Positions 2,181-60,020 of a stretch of 64,000 nucleotides of DNA are shown piece by piece. The translations under genes and the position numbers were made by a program. How positions within the stretch are numbered: the first letter of the stretch is position 1; each line of letters starts with the position of its first letter. Origin of the DNA: Thalassospiraceae bacterium LMO-SO8 (GTDB taxonomy: Bacteria; Pseudomonadota; Alphaproteobacteria; Rhodospirillales; Casp-alpha2); assembly GCA_031655335.1 (NCBI GenBank), contig CP134226.1, positions 3,840,001 to 3,904,000 of the forward strand, given 5' to 3'. The notes beneath the pieces were generated by a model. That model did no database searches and was not told where the DNA came from. It was given only the letters and a program-made list of their open reading frames with translations.

Positions 2181-3499
2181 GAAACGCTTTTCAGGGACGC
2201 CGCTTCCTTGCCGGCCCCGCCGTCTTCCGACGCTTCCAGGATTTCCGCCACCGGCATGGCCATGGCTTCGGCGTTGCGCGCGCGCAGGCCGCCCAGTTGC
2301 GCCGCCAGGGCCGCCTGCCAGCCGCCGCCCTTCAGGGTTTCGTCGATGTCGCTGATGCCCAGGCCCAGGTCCCGGTAGAGATCATAGAGGGTCACCGTGT
2401 GCAGGTCGCGGCACAGCACCCAGGCGTTGCGCGAGGTGCGCTCCACATACCCCTCGCCGCGCAATGTCTCCAGCAGCGGCTCCAACACCGACAGCGAGAC
2501 CCGGGCGGCGCGCACCAGTTCGCGGCGGCTCGCCCCTCCGCCCTCGCGGCTTCGGGCGAACAGGCAGGCCAGCACGGACACGGCCGCCGTCAGGCGCGAT
2601 GATGGGGAACTCGACAGATGCACGGGCCGGCCGCCGGCCTCCCGCCATTCGGAGATGGTCGCGGTCAGGGTCGCGCCCAGCAGCACCACGGCCCAGGACA
2701 GGTACATCCAGATCAGGAAGATCGGCACCGCCGACAGTGCGCCGTAGATGTTCTGGTAGGTCGGGAAATGGGTGACGTAAAACCCAAAGCCCTTGCGCAG
2801 CACCGCGATCATGAGCCCGGCCGCGACCGCCCCGATAACCGCCCCGGCGAAGGCCACGGGCCGGTTCGGGATGGTCACGTAGAACATGGTCAGCAGCACC
2901 ATCATGATGAGGGTCGGCAGCAGCTTCGCCGCCTCGCCCAGGACGCCCGTCGCGGGGTCGACGCCGATCCATTGGGTCGCCGCGAAGAAATAGGCCGACA
3001 GGGAGAAACTGGCGCCCAGCAGCAGCGGACCCAAGGTGATGATCGCCCAGAACACCAGGAGGCGCGGCCCCAGGCGGCGCGGCCGGGTAACGCGGAAGAT
3101 GGTATTCAGCGCCGATTCGATGGTGCCCAGAAGCAGGACCGCCGTCAGTGCCAGGGCGATGATCCCGACCGCCGACAGGGTCGTGGTGTTGCGCACGAAC
3201 TTGTCGAAATGTTCGCGCATGGATTCCGCCGCATCGGGCAGGAAATTGGCGAACAGCACGTCCTGAAAGCTTTCGCGCACGCCCTCGAACACCGGGAAAG
3301 CCGCCAACATGGCGAAGGCAATCGCCGTCAGCGGCACGGCGGCCAGGAGCGAGGTATAGCTGAGCGACGCCGCCATGCGCAGGCATTGATCGCCCTGGAA
3401 CCGCCGCAAGACGATCCCGAGAACCCCACGCCAAACGCGCCATTGCGCCTTCGCAACTCGCCAGAAATCCCGGTTTTCCGTGGTCTTGAGGCTGCTCAG
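2177..3499 (-). CDS. YihY/BrkB (UPF0761) family inner membrane protein with C-terminal winged-helix-like domain
   Basis: Multi-pass membrane protein of unknown function, historically mislabelled ribonuclease BN. After a basic N-terminal stretch (RRFQGDQCLR) the family signature AASLSYTSLLAAVPL begins the first membrane helix, followed by about five more hydrophobic helices up to residue about 285. The last 130 residues are soluble and helical, with a winged-helix-like stretch (GGASRRELVRAARVSLSVLEPLLETLRGEGYV), as in the longer family members. No ATG is well placed. A CTG at 3499 follows GGGAGG by 5 bases and is my best start; the ATG at 3583 adds 28 residues without homology and has no Shine-Dalgarno. 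Start confidence is low; family confidence is high. Confidence 0.85.
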   Translation of the reverse strand: MSSLKTTENRDFWRVAKAQWRVWRGVLGIVLRRFQGDQCLRMAASLSYTSLLAAVPLTAIAFAMLAAFPVFEGVRESFQDVLFANFLPDAAESMREHFDKFVRNTTTLSAVGIIALALTAVLLLGTIESALNTIFRVTRPRRLGPRLLVFWAIITLGPLLLGASFSLSAYFFAATQWIGVDPATGVLGEAAKLLPTLIMMVLLTMFYVTIPNRPVAFAGAVIGAVAAGLMIAVLRKGFGFYVTHFPTYQNIYGALSAVPIFLIWMYLSWAVVLLGATLTATISEWREAGGRPVHLSSSPSSRLTAAVSVLACLFARSREGGGASRRELVRAARVSLSVLEPLLETLRGEGYVERTSRNAWVLCRDLHTVTLYDLYRDLGLGISDIDETLKGGGWQAALAAQLGGLRARNAEAMAMPVAEILEASEDGGAGKEAASLKSVS

Positions 3500-3549
3500 G
3501 GGAACCTCCCGTTGACGTTCTCGGCCCCATACTATATGGCATGGAGGTT

Positions 3550-3574
3550 CGGGCAAGCTGCAAGTATTTGCCCG
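3550..3574. promoter_or_regulatory. Inverted repeat in the yihY-fabI divergent promoter region
   Basis: CGGGCAA (3550-3556) is repeated in inverted form as TTGCCCG (3568-3574) with an 11-base spacer. It lies between the divergent yihY and fabI starts, where a regulator of fatty-acid synthesis could bind. No known regulator motif is recognised; support is symmetry and position only. Confidence 0.25.
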
Positions 3575-3635
3575 GGCATACATCGGCAATCCGTCGGTGG
3601 ATAATCGGTTCCAGATAAAAAATTCGAGGAGACAG

Positions 3636-4448
3636 ATGGCTTCTGCATCGCCGTTGATGTCCGGTAAGAAGGGCCTGGTCATGGGCGTGGCCAACGACCG
3701 TTCCATCGCCTGGGGCATTGCCAAGGCCGCCCACGACCAGGGTGCCGAATTGGCCTTCACCTATCAGGGCGACGCCCTTCAGAAGCGCGTGGCGCCGCTC
3801 GCGGACAGCGTCGGCTCGGACCTTGTCCTGCCCTGCGACGTGACCGACATGACCTCCGTCGATGCCGTGTTCGACGCCATCGGCGCGAAATGGGGCAAGC
3901 TGGATTTCGTCATCCACGCCATCGCCTATTCGGACAAGGAAGAGCTCAAGGGCGGCTATATCGACACCACCCTGGATAACTTCCTGAAAACCATGAATAT
4001 TTCCTGCTATTCGTTCACCGCTGTGGCGCAGCGCGCGCGCAAGCTGATGACCGAAGGCGGATCGCTGATCACCCTGACCTATTTCGGGGCCGAACGCGTG
4101 ATGCCGCACTACAACGTCATGGGCGTGGCCAAGGCCGCGCTGGAAGCCAGCGTGCGGTACCTCGCCGAAGACCTGGGCAAGGAAGGCATCCGCGTGAACT
4201 CCCTGTCCGCCGGGCCCATGAAGACCCTGGCCGCCTCGGGCATCGGCGATTTCCGCTATATCCTGAAGTGGAACGAATACAATTCACCGCTGCGCCGCAA
4301 CGTGACCCTGGAAGACGTCGGCGGCGCCGGGCTTTACCTGGTGTCCGACCTGTCGTCGGGCGTCACGGGCGAAACCCACCACGTCGATTGCGGCTACAAC
4401 ATCGTGGGCATGAAGGCCGTCGACGCGCCGGATATTTCGGTCGTCTGA
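3636..4448 (+). CDS. fabI: Enoyl-[acyl-carrier-protein] reductase (NADH)
   Basis: Catalyses the last reductive step of each type II fatty-acid elongation cycle, reducing trans-2-enoyl-ACP with NADH; it is the target of triclosan-type inhibitors. The 270-residue protein has the atypical SDR nucleotide-binding pattern GVANDRSIAWG and the FabI catalytic Tyr-Lys pair spaced six residues apart (MPHYNVMGVAKAALE). It also has the substrate-loop signature SAGPMKTLAASGI and RRNVTLEDVG. The ATG at 3636 is chosen over an upstream frame start at 3597 because GAGGAGA lies just before it and homologues begin near here. It is followed 27 bases later by aroC. Confidence 0.97.
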   Translation: MASASPLMSGKKGLVMGVANDRSIAWGIAKAAHDQGAELAFTYQGDALQKRVAPLADSVGSDLVLPCDVTDMTSVDAVFDAIGAKWGKLDFVIHAIAYSDKEELKGGYIDTTLDNFLKTMNISCYSFTAVAQRARKLMTEGGSLITLTYFGAERVMPHYNVMGVAKAALEASVRYLAEDLGKEGIRVNSLSAGPMKTLAASGIGDFRYILKWNEYNSPLRRNVTLEDVGGAGLYLVSDLSSGVTGETHHVDCGYNIVGMKAVDAPDISVV

Positions 4449-9104: not shown

Positions 9105-9111
9105 TTTTTCA

Positions 9112-9136
9112 TTCAATATTTCCAAAAAATATTGAA
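9112..9136. terminator. A/T-rich hairpin at the left edge of the foreign cassette
   Basis: TTCAATATTT (9112-9121) pairs perfectly with AAATATTGAA (9127-9136) around a 5-base loop. A T-run follows within a few bases on the plus strand (9144-9149). It could end transcripts of the rhodanese gene or, read the other way, of the helicase operon. The stem is A/T-only apart from two pairs, so it is a weak terminator at best. Confidence 0.5.
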
Positions 9137-9180
9137 ATAGAAAATTTTTTAATTTTTGATATACTAAGATATAATTTTAT

Positions 9181-11052
9181 TTACTCCTCATCCGGAAGAA
9201 ATATTTGCCTCATCCTTTCCCAACTTTCTTCTGGTAATGTTTTAACTATTTTTATGAGCGCGGCATCTCCACTTTTCAAAACTTTTTCTCTCACTGTGGA
9301 TGCAATTTCTTCGGACGCCCTGACTTCTTCTTCTGTCAGATCCATTCCGCGAACTATTGCCCCCATCCTCAAAGCCTCATCAAGTGACAACTTAAAATCT
9401 GCTTTGAATGACACCCCACAATTTTGACAATTAGTGGCAGCCCTAGGATTCAACGCGCCACAGGAACCACAAGGCTTGAAACTAGTTCCAGTAGGGGTTG
9501 GAAATTCATGCTCACATATTTCACAAACTTTCGAACCAAGCGGGTTTTCTGCTCTACACACAGGGCATTTTTTTGTTTTAGGTGTTTCGTCGACTTTTTT
9601 GGCACTCGGCGACATCTCATCTTCAACACTGCGGGCGTATTTTTCAAAAGTTTCAAACGAAGGCATAATGACATAGGCACGGGTGTCATCTTCATCCCCC
9701 ATTGTCCGGACTACTCGACCAATAGCTTGCCTAAAGGCCAACTCCGTTAACGCAGATGGAAGATAAATCAGTACTCTTAATCGCTTGATATCGACTCCCT
9801 CAGAAATCATCGCGACAGACACGATCCATCTCTTGTCTGTATTCCTGAAGGCTCTAATTCGCCCTTCTGCATTTGCCAATTGGCTGTGAACAATCGTAGG
9901 GCGCTCGCCCTCAAGCTCTTCAATCAAGTCACACATAAATTCAGCCATCTCAATGGAAGGAGCGATAACCAAGCCCCCGGCTTCAGGCATTCGTAGCCGG
10001 AGATCGTCCAGTTTCGCTGTGGCCCACTCTACCATTGAGGCGTGATACCCAGATAACAAGGGCGATGAGTTATCCTTCTCGTACTGAGGGGTGCATGCCA
10101 ACCGATAGAAATCCAACGCGCGTTGGAGACCAGGTATTCTTTTTAGTTCTGGCGTCAAAACTGCTGGCGCATTTCCTGATACTTCGATCGGTTCCCCATC
10201 TTCCAAATCAACTGTAAATTTCCCTTCATGCCTATGGAACGCAACTGGTCGACAATATTCTAAATCAACCGCCTCGCCATATGTGAGGGTGTAAGTCCCG
10301 TCTTCCGGATGATCGATAGCCCCAAAATCATCATATGCCAGCCAAATTGATTGGTTGCGATCAGACCTAATTGGCGTACCTGTAAGAATTAGGACGTAGT
10401 CGGCATTTGCAAACGCACTATCTGCGCTTGAGCCCCAAGCAGCCTCGACGGCAGCATGATGATGCTCATCGCAAATAACCAAAACCCTGTGCATTTCACA
10501 AATTGCTTGCAGCGCATCAAGCATTCCTTGAACGGCCTGCCAAGTGGCGCACACATCAACACCGAGTTGATCAAGGTTATCATCCGCTCCAGTTACTTTG
10601 CCCATATATCGGCCAGTCACGATCCTAAAATCTTCGGACCATTGGTTAACAACTTCGGAACGGGGCGCAATGACCACGACGCGATCAATAAGCCCTTTCT
10701 CAAACAAAGCTAACGCAATGCTTGAGGCAGCCATTGTCTTACCTGAACCAGGTGCTGCGTTTATCAGAAAATGGCGGTCGTCTCCCTTCTCGGAAAACCA
10801 CGCCAATGCCTTATTAAGAGCTTCTGCTTGCCAAGGACGTAATTGAATATGCACGACTTTATCCCCCTTCGCTAAATTGCAGGAGGCGCATAGCGCCTGC
10901 CCATTAGTAACAATGGTCTTACCGCCTTTTGAGTATGGAACTTTATGGTCTGCGTGGAATGTCCCCTCCAATGTCACTCCGCAAATCTGGCATTGATATC
11001 CCGCTAACCAAGCGAGAATGCGCCTCTGTCGCTTGGTGAATATTCGCCTCAC
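9181..11052 (-). CDS. HNH nuclease-SF2 helicase fusion with tandem C-terminal zinc ribbons
   Basis: A 623-residue multidomain protein. Residues about 19-65 are a canonical HNH module: C21xxC24, D35-H36 in HADHKVPYSKGG, N50, C55xxC58 and N59. A superfamily 2 helicase follows: RPWQ at 72-75, Walker A APGSGKT at 100-106, DEHH at 195-198, TGTP at 224-227, and a motif VI-like AIGRVVRTMG in the second RecA domain. Roughly residues 505-565 hold two CxxC...CxxC zinc ribbons (CPVC/CEIC and CGSC/CQNC). A charged helical tail ends the protein. All key residues look intact. Its start overlaps the stop of the upstream 90-residue gene by 4 bases. A DNA-processing or restriction-like role is inferred; phage replication helicase is the main alternative. 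Confidence 0.85.
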   Translation of the reverse strand: MRRIFTKRQRRILAWLAGYQCQICGVTLEGTFHADHKVPYSKGGKTIVTNGQALCASCNLAKGDKVVHIQLRPWQAEALNKALAWFSEKGDDRHFLINAAPGSGKTMAASSIALALFEKGLIDRVVVIAPRSEVVNQWSEDFRIVTGRYMGKVTGADDNLDQLGVDVCATWQAVQGMLDALQAICEMHRVLVICDEHHHAAVEAAWGSSADSAFANADYVLILTGTPIRSDRNQSIWLAYDDFGAIDHPEDGTYTLTYGEAVDLEYCRPVAFHRHEGKFTVDLEDGEPIEVSGNAPAVLTPELKRIPGLQRALDFYRLACTPQYEKDNSSPLLSGYHASMVEWATAKLDDLRLRMPEAGGLVIAPSIEMAEFMCDLIEELEGERPTIVHSQLANAEGRIRAFRNTDKRWIVSVAMISEGVDIKRLRVLIYLPSALTELAFRQAIGRVVRTMGDEDDTRAYVIMPSFETFEKYARSVEDEMSPSAKKVDETPKTKKCPVCRAENPLGSKVCEICEHEFPTPTGTSFKPCGSCGALNPRAATNCQNCGVSFKADFKLSLDEALRMGAIVRGMDLTEEEVRASEEIASTVREKVLKSGDAALIKIVKTLPEESWERMRQIFLPDEE

Positions 11053-11321
11053 CGAGTTAACTGGTACTCAGTCAGTTGGATTTCTCGAATTGGTAGATTT
11101 GATGGCGGCTTAAAAACCGCATGTTCGTTAATGCGTCTTACTGCAAGAGCATATGGCACTTGTTTTGATTTTATCACCCAGCCTTGCTTCCGTAGTTCGC
11201 TGACTAAATCCGTCAAATTTGCCAATCCAAAAAAAACCAACGCCTCTAAGCGGGTAATTGGCTTTCCTTCTGCAATATGTTCACGGGCAGCCAAAGTAAG
11301 CCCATGCCTATCATTCTTCAT
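11049..11321 (-). CDS. Small helix-turn-helix-like protein of the foreign cassette
   Basis: A 90-residue protein. Its middle (LTRLEALVFFGLANLTDLVSELRKQGWVIKS, residues about 22-53) has the layout of the small phage-type helix-turn-helix family in which an EAL..FG..L...I..LR..G pattern is usual. It could therefore bind DNA. The rest is basic and unstructured-looking. Its stop overlaps the helicase start by 4 bases and its start overlaps the upstream gene by 11 bases, so the three genes are translationally coupled. Codon use is A/T-rich like the rest of the cassette. The HTH call is by eye and moderately certain; the function is unknown. Confidence 0.65.
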   Translation of the reverse strand: MKNDRHGLTLAAREHIAEGKPITRLEALVFFGLANLTDLVSELRKQGWVIKSKQVPYALAVRRINEHAVFKPPSNLPIREIQLTEYQLTR

Positions 11322-11709
11322 TTTTGATTACCCATTCTTCTGCTAATGCTCCGGGGTTTCGTGGGAATAAAGAACTTTCCATCACTGGATATCTCTTCCT
11401 AAGGACTGATTTTGGGACATATGTAGCATCCTCAGTTGCCATCCCTCCCCAATCTCGTTCTCGATTCAACAGCATCCAGCCACCATCTGCAAAAGCGACG
11501 TCTAGACTTGGATTCAGAGACCGTGAATCAGTCGACCTTAAAAATTCGGCTTCTACATCATTTACACGCTCGACAAACTGTACAAACTTTGCAGCTTGTC
11601 GGAGCAATTCACCCACAGGAAACTCATCGCCGTATACGCGTTTAAGTTCCTGATATACCTGCTTCACTTTTGAAGTCTGGGTGGCCAATTTCACGGCCCC
11701 TTCCCGCAC
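11311..11709 (-). CDS. First gene of the foreign cassette, unrecognised 132-residue protein
   Basis: I do not recognise a family. The protein has an N-terminal predicted helical stretch (VKQVYQELKRVYGDEFPVGELLRQAAKFVQFVERVNDVEAEFL). A more polar, tryptophan-containing C-terminal half follows (GGWMLLNRERDW, then VPKSVLRKRYPVMESSLFPRNPG). There is no signal peptide or membrane helix. The frame opens with GTG at 11709; a GTG six codons later, preceded by GGGAAGGGG, is an equally good start. As the first gene of the coupled operon it may be a partner or regulator of the helicase. Coding status is supported by the open frame and the overlapping gene arrangement. Confidence 0.6.
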   Translation of the reverse strand: MREGAVKLATQTSKVKQVYQELKRVYGDEFPVGELLRQAAKFVQFVERVNDVEAEFLRSTDSRSLNPSLDVAFADGGWMLLNRERDWGGMATEDATYVPKSVLRKRYPVMESSLFPRNPGALAEEWVIKNEE

Positions 11710-11732
11710 TCCGATTAAAACACGGATTACGA

Positions 11733-11756
11733 GTTTAATTAGATCACTAATTTAAA
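11733..11756. promoter_or_regulatory. Imperfect A/T-rich dyad upstream of the foreign operon
   Basis: GTTTAATTAG (11733-11742) faces CTAATTTAAAC (11747-11757) across 4 bases, with one unpaired base. It sits 24 bases before the GTG start of the first cassette gene and overlaps A/T-rich sequence that could supply its promoter. It may be an operator for the small HTH protein encoded in the operon. This is inference only. Confidence 0.35.
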
Positions 11757-11814
11757 CTTTAGGCATCAATCGTAACCTACCAACACCAATTTTTAGCCAG
11801 ATGTTTGATGCATA

Positions 11815-12600
11815 CTAAAATTTGCTATCTACTTTTTGGAGCTTCAGCACTAAGTCGCGCTTCACCGCCCCGATCAGAAACTCCACGTTCCCTTCCGGCC
11901 CCTTGATGGGGCTCGGCGTGATGCCGAGCACGGTCCAGCCGCAGTCGTCGGCGACGAAGGCCGAGACTTCCTGACAAACCTGTTCGTGCACCGCCGGGTC
12001 GCGCACCACGCCGCCCTTGCCGACCTGGCCGGGTCCGGCCTGGAACTGCGGCTTGATGAGGGCGACCAGCCTGGCCCCCGGCTTGGCCAGGGCCATCGCC
12101 GGCGGCAGAACCTTTTCCAGGCCGATGAAACTGACGTCGCAGACGATCAGGTCAATGGGATCGGGCACCTGCTTCGCCGTCAGATGGCGGGCGTTGGTTT
12201 TTTCCATCACCACCACGCGGTCGTCCGTGCGCAGCTTCCAATCCAGCTGCCCCTGGCCGACGTCGATGGCGTAGACCTTGGCGGCACCCTTGGTCAGCAG
12301 CACGTCCGTGAACCCGCCGGTGGAGGCCCCCAGGTCGAGACAGGTGAACCCCGTGGGATCGATGTGGAAATGCTCCAGCCCCTTGGCCAGCTTCTGCCCG
12401 CCCCTGGACACCCAGGGGTGGTCCTTGCCCTTGACCATGATCTCGGCGTCTTCGGCGACCTGCGCGCCCGGCTTGTCCAGGCGGCGGTCCGTGCCGAAGA
12501 CGAGGCCCGCCATGACCAGGGCCTGGGCCTTGGTCCGGCTGTCGGCCAGGCCGCGGTCGACCAGCAATTGGTCGAGCCGGGTTTTCGATGGTTTCGTCAT
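11815..12600 (-). CDS. tlyA: TlyA family rRNA 2'-O-methyltransferase
   Basis: A 261-residue protein with an N-terminal S4 RNA-binding domain (RLDQLLVDRGLADSRTKAQALVMAG) joined to an FtsJ/RrmJ-type SAM-dependent methyltransferase domain. The SAM motif is CLDLGASTGGFTDVLL. The catalytic aspartate and lysines lie in VCDVSFIGL and LIKPQFQAG, and the late glutamate in GPEGNVEFL. Characterised TlyA proteins 2'-O-methylate cytidines in 16S and/or 23S rRNA and affect capreomycin sensitivity. It is the last gene of the xseB-ispA-dxs-tlyA run. The last few codons (KLQKVDSKF) are A/T-rich, unlike the rest, and abut the foreign cassette, so the C terminus may have been rewritten by the insertion. Confidence 0.93.
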   Translation of the reverse strand: MTKPSKTRLDQLLVDRGLADSRTKAQALVMAGLVFGTDRRLDKPGAQVAEDAEIMVKGKDHPWVSRGGQKLAKGLEHFHIDPTGFTCLDLGASTGGFTDVLLTKGAAKVYAIDVGQGQLDWKLRTDDRVVVMEKTNARHLTAKQVPDPIDLIVCDVSFIGLEKVLPPAMALAKPGARLVALIKPQFQAGPGQVGKGGVVRDPAVHEQVCQEVSAFVADDCGWTVLGITPSPIKGPEGNVEFLIGAVKRDLVLKLQKVDSKF

Positions 12601-58124: not shown

Positions 58125-59290
58125 CGCCGGACATGGGCGCGCCGCGTCTGGCCCCCTTGCGTCTGGCCTTGTTTTACGGCGGCATCTTTCTGGCGCTGGG
58201 CATCATGGGGCCGTTCTGGCCGCTCTGGCTCAAGGACCGGGGCCTCGACGCGGAACAGATCGGCCTGGTGTTCGCCCTGGGCACCCTGGCCCGGCTGGCC
58301 GTCACCCCCCACTTCGCCCGCGCCGCCGACCGCGCCGGCGAACGCAAGCGCATCCTGGTCCTGCTCAGCTTCCTGGGGGCCGTGACCTTCCTTGCCTTCC
58401 GTTGGGCCGAGGGCTTCTGGCCCATCATCCTGGTGACCGTGGTGTTCTATGCCAGCAGAGGTCCTGTGCTGCCATTGACGGAAAGTCTGACCATGCTGAC
58501 CCGGCAACGGGTCCCCTTCGACTACGGCCGGGTGCGTTTGTGGGGCTCGATCACCTTCATCATCGGCGCCTGGGGCATGGGCCTGATTCTGACCGACGCG
58601 CCGGCGGACTGGATTCATTGGGCCATCTTCGCATCGGTCGCCGTGACCTTCTTCTGCGCCCTTGCCCTGCCCGACACGCGCGCACCGATCGCCGCAAAAG
58701 ACGGCCGGCCGTTCCGCGAGATCATGGCCGTGCCCGGTCTCATGGCGGCGATGACGGCGGCGACCTGCATCCAGGCGTCCCATGCGGTCTACTACAACTT
58801 CGGCTCCATCCACTGGCTGGCGTCGGGCCACGGGGCGGATGTCATCGGCGCGCTCTGGGCCGAGGGCGTGATCGCCGAAATCCTGCTGTTCACCTTTGCC
58901 GCCGCCACCGTGCGGCGCATCGGCGCGGTCCGCATGATCGCCATCGGCGCCGCCGCAGCGACGCTGCGCTGGGCCGGAACGGCGGGGACCACGGACCTGG
59001 AATGGCTGATCCTGCTACAGGCCCTGCACGGTCTCAGCTACGGTGCCACGCATCTTGGCATCATCCACCTGATCACCGAGCGGGTGGACCCCTCCCTGTC
59101 GGCCTCCGCGCAAAGCCTGTTCGCCATCACCCTTGGCGTCGGCATGAGCGCCGCGTCCTATGGCGCCGGGCTGCTGTTCTCATCTCTGGGCGGCGGCGCC
59201 TTCTGGACCATGTCGGTGCTTGCCCTGGCGGGCGCCGGGTTCGCCGGATTCTCTATAATGGTGCGCCGCAAAGCCGCCTCCAGCGGGTAG
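58121..59290 (+). CDS. MFS transporter, HcaT/LacY-like branch
   Basis: A 389-residue major facilitator with 12 hydrophobic helices. The MFS loop motif between helices 2 and 3 reads HFARAADRAGERKRILVLLSFLGA. Other marks are GRVRLWGSITFIIGAWGMG after helix 4 and ATHLGIIHLITERVDPSLSASAQSL between helices 10 and 11, seen in the 3-phenylpropionate (HcaT)-like and nucleoside-type members. GTG at 58121 overlaps the upstream stop by 4 bases; an ATG at 58133 is the alternative. Substrate unknown. Confidence 0.9.
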   Translation: MTPDMGAPRLAPLRLALFYGGIFLALGIMGPFWPLWLKDRGLDAEQIGLVFALGTLARLAVTPHFARAADRAGERKRILVLLSFLGAVTFLAFRWAEGFWPIILVTVVFYASRGPVLPLTESLTMLTRQRVPFDYGRVRLWGSITFIIGAWGMGLILTDAPADWIHWAIFASVAVTFFCALALPDTRAPIAAKDGRPFREIMAVPGLMAAMTAATCIQASHAVYYNFGSIHWLASGHGADVIGALWAEGVIAEILLFTFAAATVRRIGAVRMIAIGAAAATLRWAGTAGTTDLEWLILLQALHGLSYGATHLGIIHLITERVDPSLSASAQSLFAITLGVGMSAASYGAGLLFSSLGGGAFWTMSVLALAGAGFAGFSIMVRRKAASSG

Positions 59291-59477
59291 AATTCCCTAT
59301 CGGCGGCACATTCGCATTCGTGATTGTGCAAACAGTTTGCCTTGGTTTTTGCGGCATTCGGAAAAGAAACTGAATACAAGCGCATACAGATTGGTTTTAT
59401 AAGTGAACCCTTAACCAAAGAATCATAAAATCGGGATTGCCTGGGGCGGGGAATTTCTGAGGGCACGGAGGTGGGAA

Positions 59478-60020
59478 GTGGGTTATCTAGATTCACTGCT
59501 GGGAATCTTCAAGTTCACCAAGGATACGGACTTGGTCGCCGCGACTTGTCTGGTGCTTTTGCTGTCGAGCATCATCGGCGGCATGCTGTCCAGCATCTTC
59601 AAGGCGTTCGGCGGTCCGCTGAAACCCATCGCCTTTCAGGAAACCAACGGCTTCCGGATTCTGCTGTTCTATGAAATCTGTCTGGTCGCGGTCATCTTCT
59701 ATTACCACATGAACGTGACCGGCCGGATCGACGCCATCCAGGTCATCTTCTGGGTCTCGACCATGTTGTCCATGCCGGTCTTGTGGTTCATGGGCTCCGT
59801 AATCACCCAGGTCCTGTTCTGGTCGAAAATTTCAAAGAACAAGAAGGCCTACCGCGAATTGGTCGCCAAGCGGAAATATGCCAAGCACAAGAAAATGCAG
59901 GAAAAGATCCGCGAAGAGACCAAGGAATCGCGGGAAGCCCAGGCGCAACGCGCCGAGATAACGGCCAAGGGCAAGAAAGGCCATCAGGCGACGGTAAAAC
60001 GCCGCCGCGCCGAAAGCTAG
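59478..60020 (+). CDS. Three-helix membrane protein with highly charged C-terminal tail
   Basis: I do not recognise a family. The 180-residue protein has three membrane segments (residues about 20-45, 62-80, 88-115). A very basic, heptad-like tail follows (KISKNKKAYRELVAKRKYAKHKKMQEKIREETKESREAQAQRAEITAKGKKGHQATVKRRRAES). The tail should lie in the cytosol and could bind nucleic acid or form a coiled coil. A GTG at 59478 follows GGAGG by 6 bases. It stands alone between the MFS gene and the convergent IclR gene. Confidence 0.7.
   Translation: MGYLDSLLGIFKFTKDTDLVAATCLVLLLSSIIGGMLSSIFKAFGGPLKPIAFQETNGFRILLFYEICLVAVIFYYHMNVTGRIDAIQVIFWVSTMLSMPVLWFMGSVITQVLFWSKISKNKKAYRELVAKRKYAKHKKMQEKIREETKESREAQAQRAEITAKGKKGHQATVKRRRAES

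Follow-up and report, generated by a model that had tools for sequence, protein, structure and literature searches.

RtcR-like proteins have been predicted since 2014 as possible activators of restriction genes (PMC4012209), and activation of this kind has been proposed likewise for the CoCoNuTs (PMC11090510). A second point of reference is provided by HsdR and the type ISP enzymes (EcoR124I HsdR, LlaBIII, LlaGI), ATP-dependent restriction motors that match the protein described here in both sequence and fold. With these systems we compare a 2,753-bp AT-rich insert at positions 9106–11858 of a 64,000-nucleotide stretch of the Thalassospiraceae bacterium LMO-SO8 chromosome (contig CP134226.1, positions 3,840,001 to 3,904,000; hereafter the window), which carries two small genes, A and B, followed by a gene that joins an HNH domain to a helicase-like motor. 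Judged from sequence and predicted structure, this insert is probably a horizontally mobile, ATP-dependent, restriction-like operon for defence against phages. This prediction is drawn from a constant gene set, the company of restriction-modification (R-M) genes, sigma54 sites pointing to the operon, and fold kinship to LlaBIII, SauUSI and HsdR.

A foreign cassette at the rhodanese–tlyA junction

All three open reading frames (ORFs) were confirmed on the minus strand: gene A at 11311–11709 (132 residues), gene B at 11049–11321 (90 residues) and the HNH-motor gene at 9181–11052 (623 residues), with an overlap of 11 nt between A and B and of 4 nt between B and the HNH-motor gene. The GC fraction of the insert is 0.454, against a mean of 0.646 (standard deviation 0.016, minimum 0.609) in 1115 other 2,753-bp segments of the 64 kb taken at steps of 50. 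Its flanks were assigned with Pfam to a rhodanese (PF00581; 8781–9104, plus strand) and to tlyA (S4 and FtsJ domains; 11815–12600, minus strand). An earlier note, made from the letters of this DNA, had described three tightly overlapping A/T-rich genes between housekeeping neighbours in a GC-rich chromosome, and these measurements bear that description out.

Among the eight genomes of the genus, the HNH-motor gene is present only in the window genome (0/7 other congeners at E 1e-20). The tlyA and rhodanese genes were each found in 7/8, with G003 having neither at the thresholds used, and in the six congeners with both flanking genes the junction is empty in five and holds another AT-rich insert in one (G006). 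In the empty junctions homology resumes after 11–15 bp in three genomes (G001, G004, G005) and after ∼50 bp in the other two (G002, G007). Homology of the window to G005 and G001 runs to 9104/9105 and resumes at 11859, so that in comparison with the congeners ∼12 bp, including the ancestral tlyA stop codon, have been replaced by the insert. Since that stop codon was replaced, TlyA now ends in 14 foreign residues instead of its last one: TlyA of G005 and G001 matches residues 1–248 of 261 and ends there, and the foreign 3′ tail made by the insertion occupies 11815–11859 (minus strand). No target-site duplication was seen by eye at the insert, and Pfam found no recombinase among its three proteins.

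The 3′ end of tlyA is altered in G006 too, as in the window genome. The junction there (2238–3617 of locus L010) holds a different AT-rich stretch of ∼1.4 kb with one 417-residue membrane protein, in which a coiled coil can be seen by eye. A 39% homologue of this protein is found in the window genome (loci L089 and L087, G000:C1:1326000-1340000), where its neighbours are a C5 methyltransferase and an Eco29kI-family restriction enzyme. Since the window genome and G006 carry different inserts, the junction accepts different foreign genes, one of them linked to R-M through its homologue, and this suggests that it is a small insertion hotspot in the genus; the G006 insert, by way of the same homologue, also supports the defence reading. 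The junction comparison in close relatives had been proposed in the earlier note, and with the cassette absent from all seven congeners its picture of a foreign mobile cassette is supported.

A recurrent and conserved gene set

A second full three-gene copy lies in a genome from another family of the class (G193), with identities of 67% for the motor, 62% for B and 33% for A. At the thresholds used the motor occurs in 2/385 genomes of the class and 1/398 of the phylum, the window's own genome being counted in both. Whereas single-sequence scans of genome and viral contigs with the window motor found no relative, a genome-contig scan with an alignment of the two motors gave 188 pattern matches, from which 47 loci were obtained. 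These span Alpha-, Beta- and Gammaproteobacteria, in lineages that include SAR11, SAR116, Polynucleobacter, Sphingomonas, Roseovarius, Halieaceae and Competibacteraceae. All 47 loci have B a short way upstream of the motor. An iterated profile for A, whose seed comprised the window copy and those of 20 loci where tblastn shows A, places A beside B in 45. The exceptions are L052, whose only match to A is 7 kb away, and L055, which has none; in L050 gene A is in two pieces. Because the scan patterns were taken from the motor only, the linkage of A and B to it was not built in by the search. This gene-order search, another proposal of the earlier note, finds that the set does not always lie in prophages and is not native to all relatives.

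The state of the HNH domain varies across the 48 copies, window included: 18 have it fused to the motor and 26 as a separate small ORF between B and the motor, while in the other 4 none was found. When these labels (fused, split or none) are placed on a maximum-likelihood tree of 47 rows, they require 7 changes, against a mean of 16.9 when shuffled; the truncated L062 was left out of the tree, L052 was labelled as split though it has no HNH, and the long branches of L055 and L058 are possibly falsely joined. Several switches between fused and split states thus give a functional-partner signal. Four fused-clade copies (L021, L023, L026, L028) have a tRNA gene (Ala, Thr, Thr and Ser, respectively) ∼180–740 bp before their start, as if tRNA-targeting elements had carried them. 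In L033 a second copy of the last 40 codons of the motor (4109–4228), not an HNH, lies 1.6 kb past the intact motor end, as though an insertion there had duplicated that end.

The 623-residue protein consists of an HNH domain at residues 21–65 (10858–10992; PF01844, 2.3e-11), a superfamily 2 (SF2) motor core at residues 69–465 (9658–10848; ResIII PF04851, 8.3e-22, and Helicase_C PF00271, 3.3e-8) and a double zinc ribbon at residues 496–546 (9415–9567; PF12773, 1.7e-5, slightly below the cut-off), all encoded on the minus strand. An alignment of 39 motors (the window's plus 38 from the 47 relatives) contains eight invariant zinc-ribbon cysteines and invariant core residues of the Walker A, DEHHH box and helicase-C motifs, the first His of the DEHHH box being nearly, not fully, invariant. 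The HNH core, FHxDH and NGQALCxxCNxxKG, is at least 90% conserved at each residue among 43 extracted HNH domains, and the catalytic motifs look intact, as the earlier note had it. No full-length model of the HNH-motor exists in Pfam, NCBIfam, PADLOC or PHROGs; its best PADLOC match, PbeA (3e-15), covers a stretch of the helicase domain only, residues 67–230 (among the best 25 of 43 families), and the helicase family phrog_16 matches it at 1e-47. The first impression that the gene set corresponds to no named defence system agrees with this absence of a full-length match in PADLOC.

An AlphaFold2 model of the protein (mean predicted local distance difference test score, pLDDT, 81; predicted template-modelling score, pTM, 0.70) has RadD as its top solved fold in Foldseek (7r7j, E 2.4e-16), with a TM-score of only ∼0.4 over the whole chain. 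LlaBIII (type ISP) follows; SauUSI and EcoR124I HsdR also rank high, chromatin remodelers being interspersed, and ZorD, a defence motor, appears too; in a profile search the nearest solved sequences are LlaGI, LlaBIII, XPB and RadD (6jde). These matches bear on the idea of a DNA-repair module, in which a RadD-like helicase with an accessory HNH domain would resolve or trim stalled replication structures while the R-M neighbours merely share islands with it. RadD is the best match by structure and among the best by sequence, it also has a zinc region, and the NCBIfam RadD model matches the window motor at 1.3e-14, though far under its cut-off. The patchy presence of the motor in class and phylum, its foreign composition, its R-M context and the RtcR-like genes with their sigma54 sites nevertheless fit defence better, and we regard a repair function as unlikely.

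Neither Pfam, NCBIfam nor PADLOC has a match for gene A of the window, and those in PHROGs do not rise above chance. Its model consists of three helices with a poor tail (pLDDT 74.5, pTM 0.45), a fold search gives a best E of 1.6, that is, no match, and the family evolves fast, with no invariant column in 41 sequences; A would accordingly represent a new family of predicted small helical proteins. B is well conserved across the family and weakly winged helix-turn-helix-like, with partial library matches only: PF14090 (HTH_39) at 0.0028, below the cut-off, phrog_4973 at 2.2e-6 over part of that model (matched by 29/36 members of the B family), and a single weak and partial match in PADLOC, while a solved-structure search returns chance-level proteins only. 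Two small genes directly upstream of the HNH-motor, with overlapping ends, could also be read as parts of a toxin-like or selfish addiction unit, in which the HNH-motor damages DNA, A and/or B restrain it, and the cassette is retained. The fast evolution of A would suit this, since antitoxins are often fast-evolving, but B is conserved, present at every locus and not found in the plasmid collection, and we know of no toxin with the layout of a motor and zinc ribbon, which leaves such a unit rather improbable.

Relatives in mobile elements are distant. In the phage collection 8 records match the HNH-motor, the best being phage PIS 136 (33% over 77% of the protein), and in the plasmid collection 93 records match, none reaching 80% coverage. 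Viral contigs gave 14 loci, of which only L066 is a clear motor relative (31%); L067 is a stand-alone HNH (60% over 62 residues) and the other 12 are weaker matches to the HNH region. The A and B profiles matched none of the 18 viral and actinobacterial loci, searches with B found nothing in either the phage or the plasmid collection, and the matches in a viral fold library are remote, the best being a phage helicase at 25% identity. The A-B-HNH-motor set is therefore seen solely in proteobacterial genome records, with distant HNH-motors in phages and actinobacterial plasmids.

These data also address whether chromosomes have captured a replication or packaging module of a phage or other mobile element. 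For such an origin speak the HNH-motor shared at ∼33% with phage and actinobacterial plasmid proteins, the phrog_16 match, the viral HNH of L067, the four fused-clade copies 0.2–0.7 kb after a tRNA gene, and the tyrosine recombinases found in the flanks of 7/47 loci. However, A and B were found in none of the 18 viral and actinobacterial loci, only one of the 14 viral loci has a clear motor relative, and no structural phage gene block could be recognised by eye among the ORFs listed for 12 loci, so that we consider this origin very unlikely. Of the two options in the earlier note, a new defence system or a phage-derived one, the recurrence of the set and the neighbourhood described below favour the former as a candidate, and the viral loci without A or B speak against the latter.

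Restriction genes, RtcR-like regulators and sigma54 sites

To count neighbours, the ORFs of each locus were searched with representatives of R-M, RtcR-like and recombinase families; eleven matches of the HsdR query that fell on the motor of the cassette itself are not in the counts. HsdM is nearby in 7/47 loci (L024, L034, L035, L037, L039, L045, L057), six of which also have a complete HsdR of their own besides the cassette. A C5 methyltransferase is nearby in another count of seven (L023, L026, L027, L028, L036, L046, L051), and an RtcR-like gene in 11 (L019, L020, L024, L030, L031, L034, L035, L037, L040, L045, L057), so that 19/47 loci have R-M or RtcR-like company. For background, a PF00145 gene occurs in 95 and a PF02384 gene in 90 of 289 genomes of the class at whole-genome scale, from which ∼0.1 of each would be expected in a random stretch equal to all searched flanks (∼0.6 Mb), a rough estimate that samples the window's class only, while the loci also lie in Beta- and Gammaproteobacteria.

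Pfam checks on example neighbours found sigma54-activator domains in 3/3 and weak RtcR domains in 2/3, and confirmed HsdR and the C5 methylase. PADLOC models were matched by 8 of 10 hand-picked, non-random proteins (nine neighbours and one motor), the neighbour matches including LmuB (L019), Orf5 of HEC-06 (L046), RT_II-A (L051), a DruH-like protein (L057) and Mokosh (L045). In two rhodobacterial loci (L045:9896-14277, L057:9896-14244) the operon runs on into a gene resembling an exonuclease and one for a large, Mokosh-like helicase-nuclease.

The interval from the RtcR-like gene to the operon, or to the gene before it, contains a near-consensus sigma54 site, TGGCA(C/T)-N6-TGC, pointing to the operon in 9/11 RtcR-like loci. 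Each of the nine site scores is equalled in at most 2.6% of random windows of the same length, and on the reverse strand none of the 11 reaches the lowest of the nine. As a control, 35 copies with no RtcR-like gene in their locus were scored, the window's among them and L052 and L055 excepted; 4 of these reach that score, and three of the four (L029, L033, L039) are closely related in the tree to copies that have the gene. The nine loci amount to about six lineages, kin being counted repeatedly, and the score is a simple one, hand-written from the sigma54 consensus. The interval was chosen post hoc, after scans of 450 bp (match count) and 250 bp (hand-made score) that did not pick up the sites of L034, L035 and L037. 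In these three loci, which are of Halieaceae type, the RtcR-like gene is separated from A by a gene for an ARPP-1 family protein (PF20208; 6355–7320 in L034), with the sigma54 site ahead of that gene.

Eight of the RtcR-like matches are full length and divergent from the operon. The best reading of these sites is that the operon may be sigma54-inducible in some lineages, and what appears to be new here is the link of RtcR-like regulators to the A-B-HNH-motor operon. The copy in the window stands alone, no methyltransferase or RtcR-like partner adjoining it: no RtcR-like gene was found in the 17 kb searched, and its best sigma54 site is equalled by 15% of random windows.

Several observations weigh against the defence reading. 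The motor's best fold match, RadD, acts in repair, chromatin remodelers are frequent among the other close ones, and no HNH was found in L033, L039, L040 and L052 in the loci as searched. The remaining 28/47 loci are without any R-M or RtcR-like family searched, some of them on short contigs; an absent neighbour is weak evidence here, because gene calling was a simple greedy choice of ORFs. The C5-methyltransferase loci are not independent, since 6/7 fall in one seven-member clade, and the SAR11 copies (L048, L049, L059) have neighbours that appear metabolic by eye. Among the RtcR-like matches, those of L030, L031 and L040 are partial, the last being an N-terminal piece on the same strand, and the RtcR-like loci L045 and L057 have no sigma54 site.

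Weighing both sides, we infer for the defence operon a sequence of action with DNA as its target. Recognition of some feature of the invading DNA would fall to B, a winged-HTH-like adaptor, perhaps together with the small helical A; at that feature the RadD/HsdR-like motor would load, to translocate at the expense of ATP; and the DNA would be cut by the HNH domain, whether fused to the motor or a separate partner. In some lineages self DNA would be marked by a DNA methyltransferase encoded near the operon, while in others the RtcR-like CARF/sigma54 activator would turn the operon on after RNA damage induced by infection. More tentatively, and with somewhat more doubt than belief, the copies may together represent a widespread, unnamed immune system of proteobacteria, the streamlined SAR11 clade included. 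In it a RadD-like motor with an interchangeable HNH nuclease would be guided by a small helical protein and a winged-HTH adaptor, and in many lineages it would form an inducible second line next to type I restriction, triggered when an RtcR-like sensor detects damaged RNA. If the defence reading is right, the known arsenal would gain a compact nuclease-motor system, two of whose subunits are small and unstudied, in marine and freshwater groups such as SAR11, SAR116 and Polynucleobacter. RtcR-like regulators, for which control of restriction is predicted (PMC4012209), would also gain a concrete and testable operon with a directional sigma54 site.

Other features of the window are minor. A 9-nt inverted repeat just upstream of gene A (11734–11755) is a possible operator, and a conserved palindromic operator was rejected, the TTAG-N4-CTAA core of this palindrome occurring upstream of A in 0/44 other copies scanned. 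An AT-rich 17-nt inverted repeat (9105–9143) marks the downstream end of the insert, and predicted sigma70-type promoters and terminators in the insert do not exceed those in shuffled sequence. Elsewhere, local GC dips to 0.56 at 59001–60000.

Comparison with known systems

The likeness to RadD (YejH) lies in the fold of the SF2 motor, which is the best match in the PDB. The window motor reaches 53.4 bits against the NCBIfam RadD equivalog cut-off of 720 bits, and to our knowledge RadD has neither an HNH domain nor an operon with A and B. Unlike HsdR, the window protein has HNH as its only detected nuclease domain, the HsdR-type nuclease family HSDR_N not being among its best 25 of 27 Pfam families (E up to 1), and neither HsdM nor HsdS of a type I R-M system was found among the cassette's neighbours in the window. 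The systems in PADLOC, PbeA included, have no protein model that a cassette protein matches over its full length.

RtcR-associated conflict loci, CoCoNuTs included, share with part of the family an RtcR-like CARF-AAA+-Fis activator beside restriction genes, those of type I R-M among them, yet a divergent A-B-HNH-motor operon is not mentioned for CoCoNuT or RtcR loci in the available portions of PMC11090510 and PMC4012209. The McrB GTPase and coiled-coil nuclease of CoCoNuTs are not among the Pfam matches of the cassette proteins, and none of ten locus proteins scanned with Pfam belongs to an McrB or HEPN family. The HNH-DEAD helicases of actinobacterial plasmids and phages (PIS_093 of phage PIS 136, Streptomyces plasmids) have the same order of an HNH followed by a related motor, at ∼33–34% identity; they lack A and B, and in three plasmids a different gene of 202–213 residues follows. 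A description of the A-B-HNH-motor set was not found with the terms searched in an open-access library, a coverage outside which most subscription papers fall. Built of known domain types, the set thus appears to be undescribed and stands as a candidate for ATP-dependent nuclease-motor defence.

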